Made by a program: the position numbers and the translations under genes. 64,000 nucleotides of DNA from Polyangia bacterium (lineage in GTDB: Bacteria > Myxococcota_A > Polyangia > Fen-1088), in assembly GCA_036268875.1 (NCBI GenBank), contig DATATI010000001.1, forward strand, positions 1-64,000. The letters are read 5' to 3'. Positions 14,842 to 25,506 of this stretch are shown piece after piece (position 1 is the stretch's first letter; each line of letters begins with the position of its first letter). The notes below the pieces were generated by a model. The model worked only from the letters and a program-made list of their open reading frames with translations, was not told where the DNA came from and did no database searches.

Positions 14842-16080
<1,239 letters not shown>

Positions 16081-16131
16081 CGGTGGTATCTCCCTCTTCT
16101 TCCTGTACGCTCGGCTTGGTTCGGCCGCGGT

Positions 16132-16371
16132 CTATTTGGCGTGCGACTTGATGTAGTTGATCGCGTCGCCCACGGTCTTGATTTTCTCCGTGTCCTCGTC
16201 GGGGATCTCCAGCTTGAACGCCTCTTCCAAGGCCAAGACCAGCTCGACGACGGCCAGGGAGTCAGCCTTGAGATCGTCCGCGAAGGACGCCTCCGGCTTC
16301 ACCTTGTCCGGTGCGACTTCCAATTGCTCGATGATGATTTTTCGAACGCGTTCTTCGACGTTGTCGGCCAT
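16132..16371 (-). CDS. acpP: Acyl carrier protein
   Basis: This 79-residue acidic protein carries growing acyl chains on a phosphopantetheine arm. The attachment Ser lies in [12 protein letters not shown], where the usual DSLD motif is [15 protein letters not shown] at the start and the C-terminal TVGDAINYI are standard. It lies between fabG (69 bases upstream) and fabF, as in many bacteria. AGAGGA precedes the ATG. Confidence 0.95.
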
Positions 16372-16440
16372 TTTGCTTTGGTCCTCTCAGCAGCTTGACG
16401 CTGCAAATCTTGCGGCTCGGGACACCGCAAGCGGCGTACC

Positions 16441-17193
16441 TTACATGAAAAGTCCCCCGTTGACGCGCAAGACTTGCCCGGTGACATAGGCGGCGCCCGG
16501 GCTACAAAGATAGCTCACCGCGGCCGCCACCTCTTCAGGGCGGCCGACGCGGCCCAGCGGAATCGACTTCAATAACTCGGCGCGCCGCTCTGCCGGCAAT
16601 TCGCTGGCCGTCATGTCTGTATCGATGTACCCGGGCGAGACCGCGTTAGCGGTAACACCGCGCGAGGCGTATTCGCGAGCCAGCGTCTTGGTCAACCCGA
16701 TCACGCCAGCCTTGGCCGCCACGTACGGCGCCTGCCCGGCCGAGCCGACTTCGCCGGTGATCGAAGTGATGTTGATGATGCGGCCGTTCTCTTTGGCCTT
16801 CATCAACGCGCGCAGGGCCGCCCGGGTGCAGTGAAACGTTCCGTTCAAGTTCACGTCGATGGCCCGCTTCCAGTCGGCGTCCTTCGCCCCCAGGACCAGC
16901 GTGTTGACGGCGATGCCGGCGTTGTTCACCAGGATGTGCAGGCCGCCTTCGGCGGCGATGACCTCCTTGATCGCCGCATCGGTCGCCGCCGAGTCGGCCA
17001 CGTCGAAGCGCTTGGTGGTCGCGGAGCCGCCAGCCGTGCTGACCGCCGCCGCGGCCTCGTTGGCCGCCGCCTCGTTAGCCGTGAAGTTGATGATCACCCG
17101 CGCGCCCTGCCGACCCAAGGCGATGGCGATGGCCCGCCCGATGCCGCGCGAGCCGCCGGTGACCAGCGCAATTCTTCCGTCGAGCTCACCCAT
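16441..17193 (-). CDS. fabG: 3-oxoacyl-ACP reductase FabG
   Basis: FabG is the NADPH-dependent short-chain dehydrogenase that reduces 3-oxoacyl-ACP. The 250-residue protein shows [12 protein letters not shown] (cofactor loop), NNAGI, and the catalytic Ser-Tyr-Lys set in NITSITG and [18 protein letters not shown] and the terminal NGGLFM are also family-typical. Its start overlaps the end of fabD by 8 bases, and acpP follows. Confidence 0.95.
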
Positions 17194-18166
17194 GCTGCGC
17201 CTCCTGCTGCCCGTCCGTTCGACCGGCCTGCCGCAGATTCTGGATCGACTCGGGATCGCCCGCCGCCTGCACCGTCAAACCGGGCGCGATCCGTTTGATC
17301 AAACCGGCCAGCACGTTGCCCGCGCCCACTTCGATCCCGGCGGTGATCCCTTGCGAGGCGAGGTGCAGCACCGATTCTTCCCAGCGCACCGGCGCCGTCA
17401 CCTGTCGCACCAGCAGGTCGCGCACGCGTGCGGCGTCCTGATACGGCGTCGCCTCCACGTTGCTCACCACCGGAACCGCCGGCATCTTCACGGTAACCTT
17501 GCCTAGTTCGATTGCCAGGCGATCGGCCGCCGGCTGCATCAGCGCGCAATGGAAAGGCGCACTGACCGCCAAAGGCTTCGCCATCTTGGCGCCGCGCGCT
17601 TTCGCCGCCACGCAGGCGGCGTCGACGGCGCTCTTGTGCCCGGCGACGACCACCTGACCGCCGCCGTTGTAATTCGCCGGGCTGACGAATTGTCCGGGCG
17701 ACGACGCCGATGCCTCGGCGCACACCGCTTCGAGGTCCGCCGGCCCAAGGCCGATGATCGCCGCCATGCTGCCCACGCCGGCCGGCACCGCGTCCTGCAT
17801 GAAACGCCCGCGCAGGTTCACCAGACGAACCGCGTCGGTCAGCGCCAGCGCGCCTGTCGCCACCAGCGCCGAATATTCGCCCAGTGAATGCCCAGCCACC
17901 GCCACCGGACGCAGATCGGTTTCCTTCTCCAGCACGCGCAACGCCGCGATGCTGGTGGTCAGGATCGCCGGCTGTGCGTTGGCGGTCAGCGTGAGCTCCG
18001 CGTCCGGCCCGGCGAAACAAAGCTGGGACAGCGAGAAGCCCAGCGCTGCGTCCGCCTCGGCGAAGACGGCGCGCGCCTCCGGCCACTGCTCGGCCAGGGC
18101 TTTGCCCATACCGACTTTCTGCGAGCCCTGACCGGGGAACAGAAAGACCACGCCCGATGCTGTCAT
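17186..18166 (-). CDS. fabD: Malonyl-CoA:ACP transacylase FabD
   Basis: FabD loads malonyl groups from CoA onto ACP. The 326-residue protein has [14 protein letters not shown] at the N-terminus, the nucleophile Ser in [11 protein letters not shown], and an active-site His in SAPFHCALM. An in-frame ATG at 18241 would extend it into fabH; the ATG at 18166, preceded by TAAGG and 4 bases after the fabH stop, gives the normal N-terminus and is chosen. Confidence 0.95.
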
Positions 18167-18170
18167 CGCC

Positions 18171-19157
18171 TTACCACCGCACCGCAGCCGATGCCCAGGC
18201 CAGGCCGCCGCCGAGCGCGGTGAAAAGCAGCACCTCGCCACTTTTGATCTTTCCGTGCTCCAGCGCCTCGTCCAGCGCCGTCGGCACCGACGCCGACGAG
18301 GTGTTCCCGTAGCGATCGACGTTGATGTAAAACCGCTCCATCGGAATGGCCACCCGCTCGGCCACCCCTTCGATGATGCGCAAGTTGGCCTGGTGGGCGA
18401 TCACCCACGACACGTCTGACGGTTGAAAGGCGTTGGCCTGCAGGGCGATCTTCGCGGCCGCCGCCATGTTGCGCACGGCGTGCTTGTAGACCTCGCGCCC
18501 GTTCATCTTCACGTAGTGCCGCTTGTCCGCCACGGTTTCCACCGACGGAGGCAGGCGGCTGCCGCCCGCCGGCTGGTAAAGAATGTCGGTGTAATTCCCA
18601 TCGGCGAAGAGGTGCGTCGACAGGATGCCGCGCTTGGGATCGTCGTCGGCGGTCAGAAGAACCGCACCCGCGCCATCGCCGAACAGCACGCAGGTCCCGC
18701 GGTCGCTCCAGTCGATGATGCGGGTCAGGACCTCCACGCCGATCACCAGCACGCGTTTGTACTGGCCGCAGCGAATGAAGGCGTCGCCCACCGAGAGGCC
18801 GTAGATGAAACCGGCGCAGGCGGCTGACAGATCGAAGGCGCAGCCGCCGGCCATGGCGCCCAATTTTTTCTGCACGAACGTCGCCGTCGACGGGAACAGA
18901 CAATCGCCGGTCACCGTGCCAAGGATGATGCAGTCGACGGTGGCCGGATCGACGCCGGCCGCTTTGCAGGCGTTGCGCGCCGCCTCGGTGGCCAGATCGC
19001 TGGCCGCCTGCGACGAGTCGAGGACGTGGCGTTCGCGGATGCCCGTGCGCTCGACAATCCAGGCATCGGAGGTGTCGACGGTCTTTGACAACTCGGCATT
19101 GGTGAGAACGCGCGGCGGGACGCCCCGCCCGGTGCCGATGATGCGGCTGCGGATCAT
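18171..19157 (-). CDS. fabH: 3-oxoacyl-ACP synthase III FabH
   Basis: FabH starts fatty acid synthesis by condensing an acyl-CoA primer with malonyl-ACP. The 328-residue protein has the catalytic Cys in SAACAGFIYGL, His in IAHQANLRI and Asn in YGNTSSAS, plus TNAELSKTVDTSDAW near the start. The ATG at 19157 overlaps the plsX stop (ATGA), which supports it over the in-frame upstream start at 19319. Confidence 0.96.
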   Translation of the reverse strand: MIRSRIIGTGRGVPPRVLTNAELSKTVDTSDAWIVERTGIRERHVLDSSQAASDLATEAARNACKAAGVDPATVDCIILGTVTGDCLFPSTATFVQKKLGAMAGGCAFDLSAACAGFIYGLSVGDAFIRCGQYKRVLVIGVEVLTRIIDWSDRGTCVLFGDGAGAVLLTADDDPKRGILSTHLFADGNYTDILYQPAGGSRLPPSVETVADKRHYVKMNGREVYKHAVRNMAAAAKIALQANAFQPSDVSWVIAHQANLRIIEGVAERVAIPMERFYINVDRYGNTSSASVPTALDEALEHGKIKSGEVLLFTALGGGLAWASAAVRW

Positions 19158-20224
19158 CGCGCCGCCTCGGCGGTGGGTGGCGCCGGCGGAGCCGAATCCC
19201 AGATGAAGCGATGGCGGCTGACCGCGCCGGTCAATTCTTGCCCGAGACCGTTCTTGGCGAAGCGATCGGCGACGAAGACCGCATTCTTGATCGCGGTGGC
19301 GTTCGAGCCGCCATGGCAAATCAAAGCAACGCCGTCCACGCCCAAAAGCGGCGCGCCGCCGTGTTCAGCGTAGTCGAGACGCTTCTTCAGCCGCCGCAGC
19401 ACCGAGGTCATCAACGCCGCGCCCAACCGGGCCAGCGGTCCGGCCCGCAACACCTCTTCGCGCACCATGCCCAGGATGGCCTCCGCCGCGCCTTCGACGC
19501 TTTTCAGAACCACGTTGCCGGTGAAACCGTCGGTGACCACCACGTCGACGTCGCCGCGAAAGATGTCGCGGCCCTCGACGTAACCGACATAGTGAAAATC
19601 CGCTCGGGCACCCGGGACCAGCGTGCGCGCCAGCAGTTGGTGCGTCTCGCGGGTCAGCGGCGTGCCCTTGTGTTCTTCCGAACCGTTCGACAGCACGCCG
19701 ACACGCGGCTTCTCCTTGCCGTGTAGGAGGCGCGCATACTGCGTGCCCAGCACGGCGAACTGGGCCAGCACCGCCGGCTTGGGATCAACGTTGGCGCCCA
19801 TATCGAGCAGCGCGCACTCGCCGACCTTGGTCGGGAAGGTGGTGACGATGGCTGGGCGCTCGACGCCGGTCAGCCGGCCGAAGACGAACAGTCCGCAGGC
19901 CATCATGGCGCCGGAGTTTCCCGCCGATACCACCGCGTCCGCCTCGCCGGCCTTCACCAGATCGAAGCACACCCGCATCGATGATTTTTTCTTCTGCTTG
20001 ACCGCCATCGACGGGGCGTCGTCCATGGTGATGACGTCGGGCGCGTGGCGCACGGTCAGGCCCTTGCTGGGTGCGCCCAGCGCCGCCAGTTCGGCACGCA
20101 GGCGTGCTTCGTCGCCGACCAGGATCACCTCCAGGTCGCGCGCACGAACAGCGGCGATGACGCCCTCCACCTCGATGCGAGGCGCCCCGTCAGCTCCCAT
20201 CGCGTCGACGGCGATGCGGGACAT
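19154..20224 (-). CDS. plsX: Phosphate acyltransferase PlsX
   Basis: PlsX makes acyl-phosphate from acyl-ACP for phospholipid synthesis. The 356-residue protein shows AVDAMGADGAP at the start, SAGNSGAMMA, TFPTKVGECALLDMGANVD, NGSEEHKGT, VTDGFTGNVVLK and ALICHGGSNATAI, all PlsX hallmarks. The ATG at 20224 lies 5 bases after the rpmF stop. The C-terminal tail is Ala/Pro-rich. It overlaps fabH by 4 bases. Confidence 0.95.
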   Translation of the reverse strand: MSRIAVDAMGADGAPRIEVEGVIAAVRARDLEVILVGDEARLRAELAALGAPSKGLTVRHAPDVITMDDAPSMAVKQKKKSSMRVCFDLVKAGEADAVVSAGNSGAMMACGLFVFGRLTGVERPAIVTTFPTKVGECALLDMGANVDPKPAVLAQFAVLGTQYARLLHGKEKPRVGVLSNGSEEHKGTPLTRETHQLLARTLVPGARADFHYVGYVEGRDIFRGDVDVVVTDGFTGNVVLKSVEGAAEAILGMVREEVLRAGPLARLGAALMTSVLRRLKKRLDYAEHGGAPLLGVDGVALICHGGSNATAIKNAVFVADRFAKNGLGQELTGAVSRHRFIWDSAPPAPPTAEAAR

Positions 20225-20229
20225 GTGGA

Positions 20230-20424
20230 CTAGGGCTGCTCCTCTTCCTTCGGTTCCACCACCAGGCGATCCCGATAGTACCCGCAGGCAGCGCACATGC
20301 GGTGAGCCAGCTTGGGCTCGCTGCAACGCGGACAGGGGACAAAGTGCGGCACCGATTTCTTCATCACCTGGGCGCGGCGGATCGCCGAGCGCGACTTGGA
20401 CTGTCTTCTTTTCGGAACGGCCAT
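20230..20424 (-). CDS. rpmF: 50S ribosomal protein L32
   Basis: This is a 64-residue basic protein starting MAVPKRRQSKSRSAIRRAQ, with the four-Cys zinc site CPRC...CAAC. It is the normal upstream partner of plsX. The terminal VVEPKEEEQP is an acidic extension. Because the four Cys are kept, it is the zinc-binding rather than the Cys-less paralogue. Confidence 0.96.
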   Translation of the reverse strand: MAVPKRRQSKSRSAIRRAQVMKKSVPHFVPCPRCSEPKLAHRMCAACGYYRDRLVVEPKEEEQP

Positions 20425-20457
20425 GGGATCCTCTGTGAAAGGGTGTTCGGTCTCGGA

Positions 20458-20985
20458 CTAAAGCTTGATCTTGGCGAACGCGTTTTGCTTGAGAGCAAGG
20501 GCGTCCGGTTGGGTCTGACAAGCGCACGCCGTCAGGTTCCGGTTGGCGCCGCACAACGGGCAAAGGCCGCGGCATCCATCCTGGCAAAGCGGGCCGAGAG
20601 GAATGGCCAACAATATCTCGTCGCGGAGCTCCGGCGCGATGTCGACCTCGTCGCTGTCAAAGTAGACCACGTCGGGATCGTCCGCTTCCTCGGGATCGCC
20701 GGGCTCGCGCTCGACGAAGGTGACGGCCAGCGGAATGTTCAGAACAATGCGCGCCGTCTCCAGGCAGCGCGAGCAGGGCGTCTCGATGGCGCCCTTCAGG
20801 TCGCCGCGCAAAAGGATGTCGGCGTCCCGTGCCGAACCGCTGCGCTCGATCACGCCGTGGAGGCGCAACGGCGGTTGAGCAGGCACAAGGTCGCTGTCCG
20901 GACAGGCGGCGGCCAGCCAATCAGCCGTCACCGGCACGTCCAGGACCAGCCCGTCGTCGCCTATGTCCTTGATTTTGTACTGCAT
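20458..20985 (-). CDS. yceD: YceD family (DUF177) protein
   Basis: This 175-residue protein belongs to the DUF177/YceD family, usually encoded just upstream of rpmF. In Escherichia coli and plant plastids, family members have been linked to 23S rRNA accumulation. The sequence shows CSRCLETARI in the middle, the acidic stretch DDPDVVYFDSDEVD, and the Cys cluster CQDGCRGLCPLCGAN near the C-terminus, which looks zinc-binding. It is the first gene of the lipid operon, about 40 bases downstream of a strong promoter. Confidence 0.88.
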   Translation of the reverse strand: MQYKIKDIGDDGLVLDVPVTADWLAAACPDSDLVPAQPPLRLHGVIERSGSARDADILLRGDLKGAIETPCSRCLETARIVLNIPLAVTFVEREPGDPEEADDPDVVYFDSDEVDIAPELRDEILLAIPLGPLCQDGCRGLCPLCGANRNLTACACQTQPDALALKQNAFAKIKL

Positions 20986-21027: not shown

Positions 21028-21055
21028 ACTATAGGGAGGCCCATCGGGGAGTCAA
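21028..21055 (-). promoter_or_regulatory. Sigma-70-type promoter of the yceD-rpmF-plsX-fab operon
   Basis: On the minus strand TTGACT (21050-21055) and TATAGT (21028-21033) are separated by 16 bases. The pair lies about 43 bases upstream of the yceD ATG. Both boxes are one mismatch from consensus in a GC-rich background, which makes chance less likely. Confidence 0.75.
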
Positions 21056-21081: not shown

Positions 21082-22605
21082 TTACTTGCTGGCCGCCCCG
21101 GCGGCGGCGCCACCACCCAACAGTAGCAGAGACTTCAGGTCCTCGTCGTTGAACACCAGTTGCGTGCCCAGGAACCAGTCGATGCCGCCGCCGGCACCGC
21201 CGCGTGCGCGGTTGAAGTTCGCCAGATCGTCGCCGCCGCCAAGCAGGAACAGGTTGCGCTTCCACACCGCCAGCGCAACCGTCGGTTTGATGCGTGGGTA
21301 CTGATTCGTCTGGGCGTCAAAGACATCCAACGAAAAATTCAGCCGGTCGTCGAGTAGGTGCAGATCCAGCCCGACACCACCGGTGGATTCCTTGATACCA
21401 AATCGACCAGCCCAAGGACCGATGCGCTTGCCGAACATCAGCGTGAAACGCAGCTGCTGGCTGATGGTCACCTGCTGCTGCGACGTGGTTCCGGTCTGCG
21501 AGCTGCTGGTCACCGTGGTGGTCGCCTGACGGTACCCGCGCGGGTCCTGCACGAGCTCTATCAGATAGAACTTGTCCGGCCGCGGCTCCAGCTGGACCTG
21601 CAGGTACTCCTTGAAGGAACGCGAGATCACGTTGGCGTCGAACCGTAGGCCGACGATGGTCTGCAGCTTGGTCACGCTGCGGACGAAGGTGCTGGCGTCC
21701 TCGGTGATGTCCTCGACGTTGCGAGCGATGGTGTCGTCGGTCAATAGGTGACCGACGGTGCCCTCGCCCTTGTCGATGCGGCTGCTGATCGACTCGGTGT
21801 TCTTCAGCGTTCGGTCCAGGTTGTCGATGGTCCGTTGCAGCTTGTCCAGCGATCCGCGCACCGCCGTGCCCGTCTCCTTGACCTCGCCCTGGCTGGTGCC
21901 GACCAGCGTCTTGAGCGAATCGGTTATCTCGCGAACGTTCTGGATGGCGACCTTGACGTCACCCGCCTCGGACGTTGTCACCCCTTCGACATTGGCCGCG
22001 ATGTGATCGACCCGGTTCAGCAGCCGCTCCAGAACCGACGCGTTGGTCTCGATCAGCTTGTTGACGTTCTCCGCGATGTCCGTGACCGTGCCCGACGTCA
22101 GGCGCTTCACGTCGGTGAGGATGTCTTTCAAGATCGGCAAGATGGTCCCGATGTCAGCCATCAGATCGCCCATCGCCGTCGGCTCGCGAACGTCTTTGAT
22201 CTCGTCGCCGTCTTTAAGGGGAACCATGTCGCGCCGCTGGCCGTTCACCAGCGCGTACGGCGTACCGGGATCTATCTCCAGATAATACTCACCCAGCAGC
22301 GAAGCGGATTTCTTCGAGACCACGGCGTTCGACCACAACTTGATGTTGGGGTTGATGCGCACGGAGATCTTCGCTTTTGCCGTCGCTGGATCCAGTTCGC
22401 GCTTTTCGATCTGCCCGATGGAGATGCCGGCGGTCTGCACCCGCGACTTTTCGAACAGCCCGGAGGCATCGGTAAACAAGCCCCAGACGACAATACCCTT
22501 GCCACCGGTCGTGCGCTCGCTGGTGGCGCGAATGATGACATACGTCGCGCCCGCCACCAGCAGCACCAAAAGACCGACGGTGACCGAGGCCCAGCTTTTC
22601 CTCAC
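21082..22605 (-). CDS. mlaD: MCE-family lipid transport protein (MlaD-like) with extended beta-rich C-terminus
   Basis: MlaD-type proteins bind lipids in the periplasm next to the MlaE/MlaF transporter. The 507-residue product, far longer than E. coli MlaD (about 180), has an N-terminal membrane anchor (residues 8-27), one MCE domain (about 36-120; SGLFEKSRVQTAGISIG and LGEYYLEIDPG) and a long helical, Asp/Lys/Thr-rich region (about 145-320). A C-terminal part (about 325-490) is rich in alternating strands ending in aromatics (YLQVQLEPRPDKFYLIEL, LRFTLMFGKRIG, VGLDLHLLDDRLNFSLDV). That part looks like an outer-membrane beta-barrel or a sheet domain. It overlaps mlaF by 4 bases. Confidence 0.85.
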   Translation of the reverse strand: MRKSWASVTVGLLVLLVAGATYVIIRATSERTTGGKGIVVWGLFTDASGLFEKSRVQTAGISIGQIEKRELDPATAKAKISVRINPNIKLWSNAVVSKKSASLLGEYYLEIDPGTPYALVNGQRRDMVPLKDGDEIKDVREPTAMGDLMADIGTILPILKDILTDVKRLTSGTVTDIAENVNKLIETNASVLERLLNRVDHIAANVEGVTTSEAGDVKVAIQNVREITDSLKTLVGTSQGEVKETGTAVRGSLDKLQRTIDNLDRTLKNTESISSRIDKGEGTVGHLLTDDTIARNVEDITEDASTFVRSVTKLQTIVGLRFDANVISRSFKEYLQVQLEPRPDKFYLIELVQDPRGYRQATTTVTSSSQTGTTSQQQVTISQQLRFTLMFGKRIGPWAGRFGIKESTGGVGLDLHLLDDRLNFSLDVFDAQTNQYPRIKPTVALAVWKRNLFLLGGGDDLANFNRARGGAGGGIDWFLGTQLVFNDEDLKSLLLLGGGAAAGAASK

Positions 22606-23405
22606 GGCGACGCCTCCTGTGGCGTCCCGATGCCCGCAGTATCGATGAACTCGCGCAGCGCCGGGTGGTGCGATCCCCGAACCTCGGCCGACGTCCCGGT
22701 GAGCAAGATCTTTCCTTCGTACAGCATCGAGATGCGATCGCCGATGCGGAACGTCGACGCCATATCGTGCGAGATCACCACCGAGGTCACGCCGAACTGG
22801 TCGGCGGTCCGGCGAATCATCTCGTCGACGTTCTTGGTGGCGATGGGATCAAGGCCGGTGGTGGGTTCGTCGTAAAGCAAGATCTCCGGGCGGTCGATCA
22901 GCGCCCGGGCCAGACCCACCCTTTTGCGCTGGCCACCCGACAGTTCGGCGGGAAACTTCTGCTCGACACCGGCCACATGAGCCAGGTCCAGGCGCTCCAG
23001 CAGATCACGCACCCGGCCCATGATCTCGTCATTGGCCAGGTGGTAACGCTCGACCAGCGGGAAGGCGATGTTCTCCACCACGTTCATCGAATCGAACAGC
23101 GCCGCGTACTGAAACACCATGCCAAACTTGCGGCGCATGGCCGCGATCTGGACGTCGTTCATCGGCACCATGTCGACGCCGTCCACCCAGATGTGGCCGC
23201 TGTCCGGTTTCAGCAAGCCCATCAGGTGCTTCATCAACACTGACTTTCCCGCGCCCGAGCCACCGATGATGATGTTGGTCTTGCCGCGTTCGATGTCGAG
23301 GTCGATGCCGCGCAAGACGTGCTGTGGACCGAAGGTCTTGTTCAGCCCGCGCACGCGAATCTGCCAGCGCTGGTCGCGCTGGGAGGGATCAGCCACCGTG
23401 GACAT
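22602..23405 (-). CDS. mlaF: MlaF-like ABC transporter ATP-binding protein
   Basis: This is the ATPase of an MCE phospholipid transport complex. The 267-residue protein has Walker A GGSGAGKSV, Q-loop VFQYAALFDSMNV, signature LSGGQRKRVGLARAL and Walker B ILLYDEPTTGLDP with ISHD. FQYAALFDSMNVVENIAFPL is typical for Ttg2A/MlaF. The ATG at 23405 is 8 bases after the mlaE stop; the long upstream open frame overlaps mlaE and is not coding. Confidence 0.93.
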   Translation of the reverse strand: MSTVADPSQRDQRWQIRVRGLNKTFGPQHVLRGIDLDIERGKTNIIIGGSGAGKSVLMKHLMGLLKPDSGHIWVDGVDMVPMNDVQIAAMRRKFGMVFQYAALFDSMNVVENIAFPLVERYHLANDEIMGRVRDLLERLDLAHVAGVEQKFPAELSGGQRKRVGLARALIDRPEILLYDEPTTGLDPIATKNVDEMIRRTADQFGVTSVVISHDMASTFRIGDRISMLYEGKILLTGTSAEVRGSHHPALREFIDTAGIGTPQEASP

Positions 23406-23413
23406 CGGGGCGG

Positions 23414-24286
23414 TCACGATTTGTACGGCCACAAGATGTGAAAGATATCGATGAGGAAATAATCGAGGACCAGAACCGAGACCGAGCCTGCAACCACCGC
23501 CCGGGTGGTGGCAAGCCCGACCTCCTTGGCGCCGCCGCGGACGTTGAATCCTTGATAGCAGGCGGTCAGCGCCACGGCGATCCCGAACACCGCCGCTTTG
23601 GTGGCTCCAATGATGTAATCCTTCGGATCGGTCCAGTACGTGTAGTACTCGATGAACTGACCCAAATCGACTTGCTTGAGGTAGATGGCGTACAGGTACG
23701 CGCCGAACAAGCCGACCACGTTGAAGACCATGGTCATGACCGGCATCATCAAGAACGTCGCCACCAGGCGCGGGCTGACCAGGTACTGAACCGGGTTCAC
23801 CGCGAACGTGCTCAGCGCATCGATCTGTTCGGTGATGCGCATCGACCCGAGCTCGGTGGCCATGCCAGAGCCGGCGCGCGCGGTGATCATCAGTGCGGTG
23901 AAGACCGGTGCCAGTTCCTGGGCCAGCGACAGGCCGACGGTGGCGCCGACGTAACGTTCCTGGCGGAAGATCTCCAGCGCGGCGATGGCCTGCTGCGAGG
24001 CGACCGCGCCCGAAAAGAACCCGACCAACAAAATGATGGGCAGCGAACCGACGCCGACGAACTCCATCTGGTCGAGAAAAAGTCGCAGGCGGAACGGCGG
24101 CCGGAACAGCCATTTGACGGCGTCGTAAAGCAACATCGAATGCTCGCCGAAGTAACCGAAGATCAGGCGTAGCGGCGCCATGGCGGCGTCACCCAAATCT
24201 TTCCAGCGCAGGCGTTCTTCGGGCGCGGCGGGCGGCGCTGGGCGCGGTCTTCCAGTCGGCGGATCAGCGGAAGAGAGCTCCGTCAT
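23414..24286 (-). CDS. mlaE: MlaE-like ABC transporter permease
   Basis: This inner-membrane permease of the MCE complex has 290 residues with about five hydrophobic segments. It carries the MlaE signatures LAQELAPVFTALMITARAGSGMATELGSM and EQIDALSTFAVNPVQYLV, and FNVRGGAKEVGLATTRAVV near the end. The Pro-rich N-terminal 25 residues are variable. It overlaps alr by 4 bases and is followed 8 bases later by mlaF. Confidence 0.93.
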   Translation of the reverse strand: MTELSSADPPTGRPRPAPPAAPEERLRWKDLGDAAMAPLRLIFGYFGEHSMLLYDAVKWLFRPPFRLRLFLDQMEFVGVGSLPIILLVGFFSGAVASQQAIAALEIFRQERYVGATVGLSLAQELAPVFTALMITARAGSGMATELGSMRITEQIDALSTFAVNPVQYLVSPRLVATFLMMPVMTMVFNVVGLFGAYLYAIYLKQVDLGQFIEYYTYWTDPKDYIIGATKAAVFGIAVALTACYQGFNVRGGAKEVGLATTRAVVAGSVSVLVLDYFLIDIFHILWPYKS

Positions 24287-25506
24287 GGAACCGACGGCGG
24301 CTGGAGCGGCCCAACCGGCCGCGGCGAAGCAACGTTATACACGCGAGGCACCCGTTTCGAGATGCCGCAGAGAATCTCATAACTGACGGTTCCGGCCCAG
24401 CGTGCCAGATCGTCCACGCTGATGCCCCCTGCCCCGTCGTCGCCGATCAACGTGACGGCGTCGCCCACCGCCGCACCCGGCACATCGGTGACGTCGACCA
24501 TCAACATGTCCATGCAGACCGCGCCGACGATCGGCGCGCGCTGGCCCCGCACCAGCACCGCAGCGTCGCGCACGTGCCGTGGATAGCCGTCGGCGTACCC
24601 GATCGGCAAGGTAGCCACCAGCGACGGACGCGCCGCCCGCCACAAGCCGCCATAACTGACGGTCGTGCCAGTCGGGATGTGGTGCAGCGCCATGATCAGC
24701 GTGGTCAGCCGCAGCGTCGGTTCAACCCCGGCCAGACCGACGTGCGTCGACGGCATCACGCCGTAAAGCGCAAGTCCCGGGCGGACGGCATCCAGCCGAG
24801 CGTCCGGAAATCGGACAGCGGCGGCGCTGTTGGCGGCATGATTGGTCAACCCGTGAAGGCCGCGCTGGGCGGCCAGGTCAACGCAGCTGCGAAAGCGCGT
24901 CAGCGCCTGTAGGGTGGCGGCGCCATCCGCGACGTCCGCCGACGCAAAATGGGTGCACAGACCGGCCAGCAACAAACTGTCGGCGGCCCCGACTTGATCC
25001 AGCATGGCCGGCAATTCGTCGGTGGAAACACCCAAGCGACTCATCCCAGTGTCGACCTTCAAGTGAACCGCCACCCGCCGTCTTCGTTCGTTGCCCGCCG
25101 CCGCGAAGCGCTCGAGGTCGCCAGGATCGTAAACGACCGGCGTCAGCCCCTCGTCGATCACCTCGCGTTGGTGGCGATTGTAGTAAGCGCCCAGAATCAT
25201 CACCGGGCCGCGGAGCCCGGCCGCGCGCAACTCTAACCCCTCTTCGACCAGCGAGACCGCCAACCCATCGCAAAGCGGCTCCAGCGCCCGCCCCACCGCC
25301 ACCGCTCCGTGGCCGTAGGCGTCGGCTTTGATGACCGCCCACAGCTTGACGCCTGAACCGATGGTGGCCCGCAGCCGCGCCACGTTTCGCGCCATCGCCC
25401 CCAGATCGACAGTCGCCACGGTGGGACGGATCGACGTGCGGATGTCGACCTCGGACAACGGTGCGACCGGCGCGGTGATCGCCCCGACTCTGGGCTTCGT
25501 CGCCAA
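24283..25506 (-). CDS. alr: Alanine racemase
   Basis: This PLP enzyme converts L-Ala to D-Ala for peptidoglycan. The 407-residue protein has the PLP Lys in AVIKADAYGHGA (near residue 60), TGMSRLGV, the catalytic Tyr in TVSYGGLWRA and CMDMLMVDVTDV. The N-terminal 25 residues are extra and may include a non-native start. It is the first gene of the alr-mlaE-mlaF-mlaD run and overlaps mlaE by 4 bases, which couples cell wall and envelope-lipid functions. Confidence 0.94.
   Translation of the reverse strand: MATKPRVGAITAPVAPLSEVDIRTSIRPTVATVDLGAMARNVARLRATIGSGVKLWAVIKADAYGHGAVAVGRALEPLCDGLAVSLVEEGLELRAAGLRGPVMILGAYYNRHQREVIDEGLTPVVYDPGDLERFAAAGNERRRRVAVHLKVDTGMSRLGVSTDELPAMLDQVGAADSLLLAGLCTHFASADVADGAATLQALTRFRSCVDLAAQRGLHGLTNHAANSAAAVRFPDARLDAVRPGLALYGVMPSTHVGLAGVEPTLRLTTLIMALHHIPTGTTVSYGGLWRAARPSLVATLPIGYADGYPRHVRDAAVLVRGQRAPIVGAVCMDMLMVDVTDVPGAAVGDAVTLIGDDGAGGISVDDLARWAGTVSYEILCGISKRVPRVYNVASPRPVGPLQPPSVP

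Follow-up and report, generated by a model that had tools for sequence, protein, structure and literature searches.

The long MCE protein encoded at positions 21082-22605 (minus strand) of the 64,000-nucleotide stretch of myxobacterial DNA analysed here (the window) is likely, judging from structure models, to be a Veillonella-type trans-envelope MlaD that would bridge both membranes, carry lipid through a tube and have no need of MlaA. By prediction, the protein has a long helical region followed by a ten-stranded barrel; its gene has mlaE and mlaF as partners, and MlaA is absent from the genome. This design is already known and has been reported to be widespread (PMC10665443); the new detail is that a soluble-carrier family is retained alongside it.

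The mlaD gene and its genomic context

An initial annotation of this DNA had described an MCE protein of 507 residues in a run of alr, mlaE, mlaF and mlaD genes unaccompanied by mlaA, mlaB or mlaC. Our analysis agreed on both points, as the open reading frame is exact on the minus strand and none of the three genes is present at the locus. A plus-strand reading of the same interval was ruled out, with stops throughout. The features of the locus are as follows:

24283..25506, minus strand: alr-like gene, upstream in the mla run, overlapping mlaE by 4 bases
23414..24286, minus strand: mlaE, permease, 290 aa (PF02405, 247 bits)
22602..23405, minus strand: mlaF, ABC ATPase, 267 aa (PF00005)
21082..22605, minus strand: mlaD, long MCE protein of 507 aa, with AGGAGG in front of its GTG start
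21028..21055, minus strand: TTGACT-16-TATAGT in the mlaD-yceD interval, resembling a sigma-70 promoter (pattern match only)

The first of these genes is one that we take to be alr by recognition of its sequence, and mlaD is the last gene of the tightly packed run. Considering that the start of mlaD shares bases with the stop codon of mlaF (GTGA), that only 8 bases separate mlaE from mlaF and that the alr-like gene overlaps mlaE, the four genes appear to be translationally coupled. On the same strand, mlaD is followed by yceD, plsX, fabH, fabD, fabG and fabF (14842-20985 of the window, minus strand). The sigma-70-like pattern had 2 matches in this region versus 0.8 expected, and the match in front of yceD suggests that the fab/plsX cluster may have its own promoter.

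Predicted architecture of MlaD

The full-length protein was modelled by AlphaFold2 with 39 homologues, and its MCE and barrel parts were confident. Together with the alignment, the model delimits the following parts:

22516..22590, minus strand: predicted inner-membrane helix, residues 6-30 (AlphaFold2 model, homologue alignment)
22186..22494, minus strand: MCE domain, residues 38-140 (PF02470, fold match to E. coli MlaD)
21673..22173, minus strand: amphipathic helical region, residues 145-311 (helices in the model, hydrophobic moment)
21742..21768, minus strand: conserved GxGTxGxLL motif, residues 280-288, late in the helical region (alignment)
21151..21663, minus strand: predicted C-terminal beta-barrel domain, residues 315-485 (models, fold matches, strand pattern)
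21091..21147, minus strand: C-terminal tail, residues 487-505, with conserved DEDLKxLLxxGGSA (low-confidence helix after the last strand)

The single MCE domain proposed by the initial annotation was recovered as PF02470 at residues 39-114 (48.3 bits versus a cut-off of 25.1), which places the protein in the MCE/MlaD family, and this part superimposed closely on E. coli MlaD (5uw2; VIA-align Z 17.5, rmsd 1.4 A). The protein scored 71.6 bits against the E. coli-type MlaD equivalog TIGR04430, below its cut-off of 135, and the similarity was limited to residues 3-150. The helical region of about 175 residues noted earlier was also borne out across the family, where this stretch spans 172-231 residues with a median of 175. 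Its hydrophobic moment at 100 degrees (residues 145-311) was 0.98 versus 0.42 +/- 0.07 in shuffles, and a conserved hydrophobic stripe with a periodicity of 100 degrees per residue follows the entire region; in the GxGTxGxLL motif, G282 and G285 are invariant and T283 nearly so. The amphipathic stripe would suit a tube walled by six helices, like those of PqiB and Mce1, and the helical regions of a hexamer may form such a tube in the periplasm. The pLDDT of the helical region is low (<50 over residues 159-312, with block means of about 31-43), and the tube, its lumen and its span are therefore inferred.

With regard to the C-terminal part, the repeated amphipathic strands that had been noticed from the sequence were confirmed: residues 315-485 are strand-rich, their strands are mostly of high confidence in the AlphaFold2 model, and strand alternation (weighted difference) reached 2.93 versus 1.40 +/- 0.29, a value matched by 0/2000 shuffles. 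Modelled by itself from 32 sequences, the barrel obtained a pLDDT of 83.2 and a pTM of 0.72. VIA-align comparisons of residues 313-485 of the full-length model gave OpcA as a match (Z 16.4, rmsd 2.5 A over 135 residues), with Z values of 14.4 for the omptin Pla and 14.0 for TMB10, a designed barrel. A barrel profile search against PDB sequences returned nothing meaningful. DSSP listed 12 strand segments in the domain. Of these, 358-368 and 372-382 are T/S-rich and have no hydrophobic face, in contrast to nearly all other segments, and the closest structural matches are barrels of ten strands. We therefore rejected a count of 12 membrane strands in favour of 10, in which strands 3 and 4 continue into a hairpin that protrudes from the surface (residues 358-382). 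This count is our reading of the model and not a computed value; the Veillonella barrel likewise has ten strands (PMC10665443).

One face of the strands consists of V, L, I and F, and the other carries glycines and four charged residues that are invariant or almost invariant (E350, K393, R401 and D427). With the inward-pointing face judged from conservation, this arrangement fits small outer-membrane barrels with polar interiors. Last strands of the type Phi-x-G-x-x-Phi-x-F correspond to the BamA beta-signal pattern. The last strand of our protein, FLGTQLVF, fits such a signal, and the pattern is kept in nearly all homologues. Textbook outer-membrane proteins end on their last strand; here it is followed by the conserved tail. 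A stand-alone relative of the barrel is encoded elsewhere in the same genome (contig C23, 86306-86989; L061:4304-4990, minus strand) and has a signal-peptide-like N-terminus; over 165 residues it is 28% identical to the MlaD barrel (E 1e-11). A search of the 58 relatives gave no further stand-alone copy and matched MlaD proteins alone. Such a paralogue is consistent with an outer-membrane domain that folds independently. The outer-membrane barrel and Veillonella-type architecture that had been suggested for this protein are, as a prediction, well supported by the models.

Conservation across the class

MlaD orthologues are 54-67% identical over their full length within the family of the window, and identity is about 36-47% in the rest of the class. 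The relatives named in public records are Myxococcales, Kofleriaceae and other myxobacterial metagenome-assembled genomes, which places the window in Myxococcota. Almost every locus of sufficient length has the gene order Crp-alr-mlaE-mlaF-mlaD, those of the distant Kofleriaceae included. The yceD-plsX-fab block 3' of mlaD, in contrast, is restricted to closer relatives and absent in distant ones. In 49/59 genomes (hand count, our genome included), the MlaD match extended into the barrel.

The ten class members with no match to the barrel part were G022, G030, G032, G038, G040, G046, G048, G050, G054 and G056. Most of these showed a weaker match that covered the MCE and helical parts only, which suggests that their MlaD does not include the barrel.

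Transport partners elsewhere in the genome

Our genome contains one MCE gene and one MlaE gene, and the barrel-type MlaD system is therefore its only MCE transporter. MlaA was detected in 0/59 genomes (our own, 96.8% complete, and 58 relatives), with positive E. coli and Caulobacter controls. STAS-domain genes are located on other contigs, none of them with mlaEF, and the genome has three TamB-family matches. It also has two genes of the MlaC/HpnM family, on contigs C83 and C36 (E 8e-32 and 9e-29), with scores of 111 and 101 bits against Pfam MlaC; the better of the two scored 65 bits against NCBIfam HpnM versus 32 against MlaC, both far below the curated cut-offs. With MlaA absent and the STAS and MlaC-family genes unlinked to the run, these partners depart from those of the six-component Mla system (MlaABCDEF).

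MlaC-family genes were found in 52/59 genomes, our own included. They were present in 43/49 genomes with a barrel-type MlaD (hand count) and in 9/10 of those with none detected. A trans-envelope bridge had been thought to make the soluble carrier family unnecessary, and the initial annotation had put forward a bridge that needs no soluble lipid carrier, naming a genome search for mlaA and mlaC as a check. The absence of MlaA accords with that proposal, but the two MlaC-family genes away from the run do not; considering that such genes occur in our genome and in most of the barrel-type genomes, the claim is unsupported as stated and the carrier-free route is not established.

These genes leave a carrier route open. 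It could be argued that the barrel of MlaD tethers the transporter, that an MlaC-family protein delivers the lipid and that some other outer-membrane partner replaces MlaA. This arrangement, which we consider unlikely, would be consistent with the frequency of the MlaC family in genomes that all lack a detected MlaA, and also with the position of the mlaC-like gene directly 3' of a TolC-family (OEP) gene in 7/15 sampled MlaC loci of relatives (mostly outside our own family), which gives it an outer-membrane neighbour. However, mlaC-like genes did not adjoin mlaEFD in the loci inspected, they are just as frequent where no barrel-type MlaD was detected, and they score as HpnM-like rather than as MlaC. 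Being placed away from the mla run, the MlaC-family proteins in our genome probably serve another pathway. Rather improbable, too, is a hybrid in which the barrel-type MlaD would cooperate with an MlaC-family carrier tied to a TolC-family protein instead of MlaA; if true, this would represent an intermediate or an alternative between a minimal MlaEFD and the six-component system.

An LptD domain was found in 0/59 genomes by a weak search, with controls positive in only 2/14 genomes. This negative result may reflect either a limit of sensitivity or a real lack of LptD. We therefore draw no conclusion on LPS from it, and a role of the MlaD system in LPS asymmetry cannot be taken for granted.

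Proposed mechanism

In the trans-envelope bridge that we favour, six copies of MlaD would sit on an inner-membrane MlaE2F2 transporter, which would make MlaE2-MlaF2-MlaD6 the working unit. The six helical regions would form a tube with a hydrophobic lumen, long enough to span the periplasm: at 1.5 A per residue, about 165 residues would reach roughly 25 nm if the helix is continuous. The six barrels, inserted in the outer membrane, would anchor the far end of the tube. MlaF would power the passage of phospholipid through the tube, which would connect the inner membrane with the inner leaflet of the outer one; by analogy with Veillonella, retrograde transport is the more likely direction. MlaA would be dispensable, since the barrel would make the contact with the outer membrane. 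We infer the hexamer, the tube, the insertion, and lipid transport with its direction from the models and from comparison with known systems. The protein had been described initially as a one-protein lipid conduit. A bridge is indeed likely, but the wording was loose, as the unit would comprise MlaE and MlaF as well and the barrel itself would be too narrow for lipid passage, as was argued for Veillonella (PMC10665443).

It is also conceivable, but quite improbable, that the barrel is only an anchor, with no lipid moving along the helical region and the complex acting locally at the inner membrane. The poor modelling of the helical region would agree with this, as would the report that most long MlaD proteins elsewhere have no barrel (PMC10665443), but the conserved amphipathic stripe along the whole region and the helical tubes formed by PqiB and Mce1 (PMC10665443) argue for a passage. 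Finally, we regard it as very improbable that the C-terminal domain lies outside the outer membrane as a soluble periplasmic barrel (calycin/nitrobindin-like) or as an Mce1-style intersubunit barrel: some soluble ten-stranded barrels do match (nitrobindin, Z 10.9), a tail follows the last strand and the inward face was judged from conservation, but the best fold matches are membrane barrels (Z 14-16), conserved glycines and charged residues lie together on one face with V, L, I and F on the other, the last strand has the beta-signal pattern, each chain has strands enough for a barrel of its own, and the Veillonella domain that corresponds to it by architecture fractionates with the outer membrane (PMC10665443).

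Comparison with known systems

The MlaD of V. parvula (419 aa) consists of a helix, an MCE domain, long helices and a ten-stranded barrel (Grasekamp et al. 2023, PMC10665443), and in fractionation its barrel part went with the outer membrane and its MCE part with the inner membrane (PMC10665443). Like the protein of our window, it has an inner-membrane helix, one MCE domain and a C-terminal barrel of ten strands, a likeness in architecture, predicted for our protein and published for that of Veillonella. The Veillonella protein has about 150 helical residues and its gene has mlaE and mlaF as neighbours in a run that includes neither mlaA nor mlaB, as here. In contrast, our MlaD is 507 aa long, carries the extra tail after the last strand and belongs to a myxobacterial lineage. 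Helical extensions have been reported for some barrel-type members, and 103 barrel-type sequences were identified in diderm Terrabacteria, some Proteobacteria and nearby phyla (PMC10665443).

According to the same study, the barrel tends to accompany the absence of MlaA and MlaC, as a tendency rather than a strict rule (PMC10665443). The absence of MlaA in our genome fits this tendency, whereas its two MlaC/HpnM-family genes do not and provide a counter-example to the loss of MlaC with barrel-type MlaD. Our results would also extend the Veillonella-type bridge across the whole myxobacterial class. Given that barrel and MlaC family coexist in this group, it is well suited for asking whether bridge and carrier cooperate or run separate pathways.

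More distant systems share parts of this architecture. E. coli MlaD (183 aa, MlaFEDB) has the membrane helix, the MCE domain and the mlaE/mlaF partners, but it has neither a long helix nor a barrel and needs MlaC and MlaA. M. smegmatis Mce1 (8fed, 8fef) also has a long helical region after its MCE domain (Foldseek E to 7e-9); it differs in being a heterohexamer to which each chain contributes one strand of a small barrel, with no full barrel per chain (PMC10665443). OpcA and the omptins are ten-stranded outer-membrane barrels that match the fold of the MlaD barrel (Z 14-16), but at 7-9% identity no sequence relation to it is evident, and they are stand-alone proteins, an adhesin or proteases.

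Loci with mlaC-like genes

We found no papers on MlaC with TolC in Myxococcota, or on MlaC, MlaA and Deltaproteobacteria. The seven relatives' loci in which the mlaC-like gene follows a TolC-family gene are L086, L088, L089, L090, L091, L096 and L099, and in L086 and L088 the mlaC-like gene is itself followed by a lipoprotein-like gene of about 480 aa. A lipoprotein-like gene of this size also comes after the mlaC-like gene in other sampled loci. The seven loci possibly represent an MlaC-linked outer-membrane module. On contig C83 of our own genome, a lipoprotein-like protein of 487 aa is encoded after the mlaC-like gene (L062:8335-9798). It has no Pfam match, is kept in seven relatives and contains an FDTG motif that resembles those of aspartic proteases.
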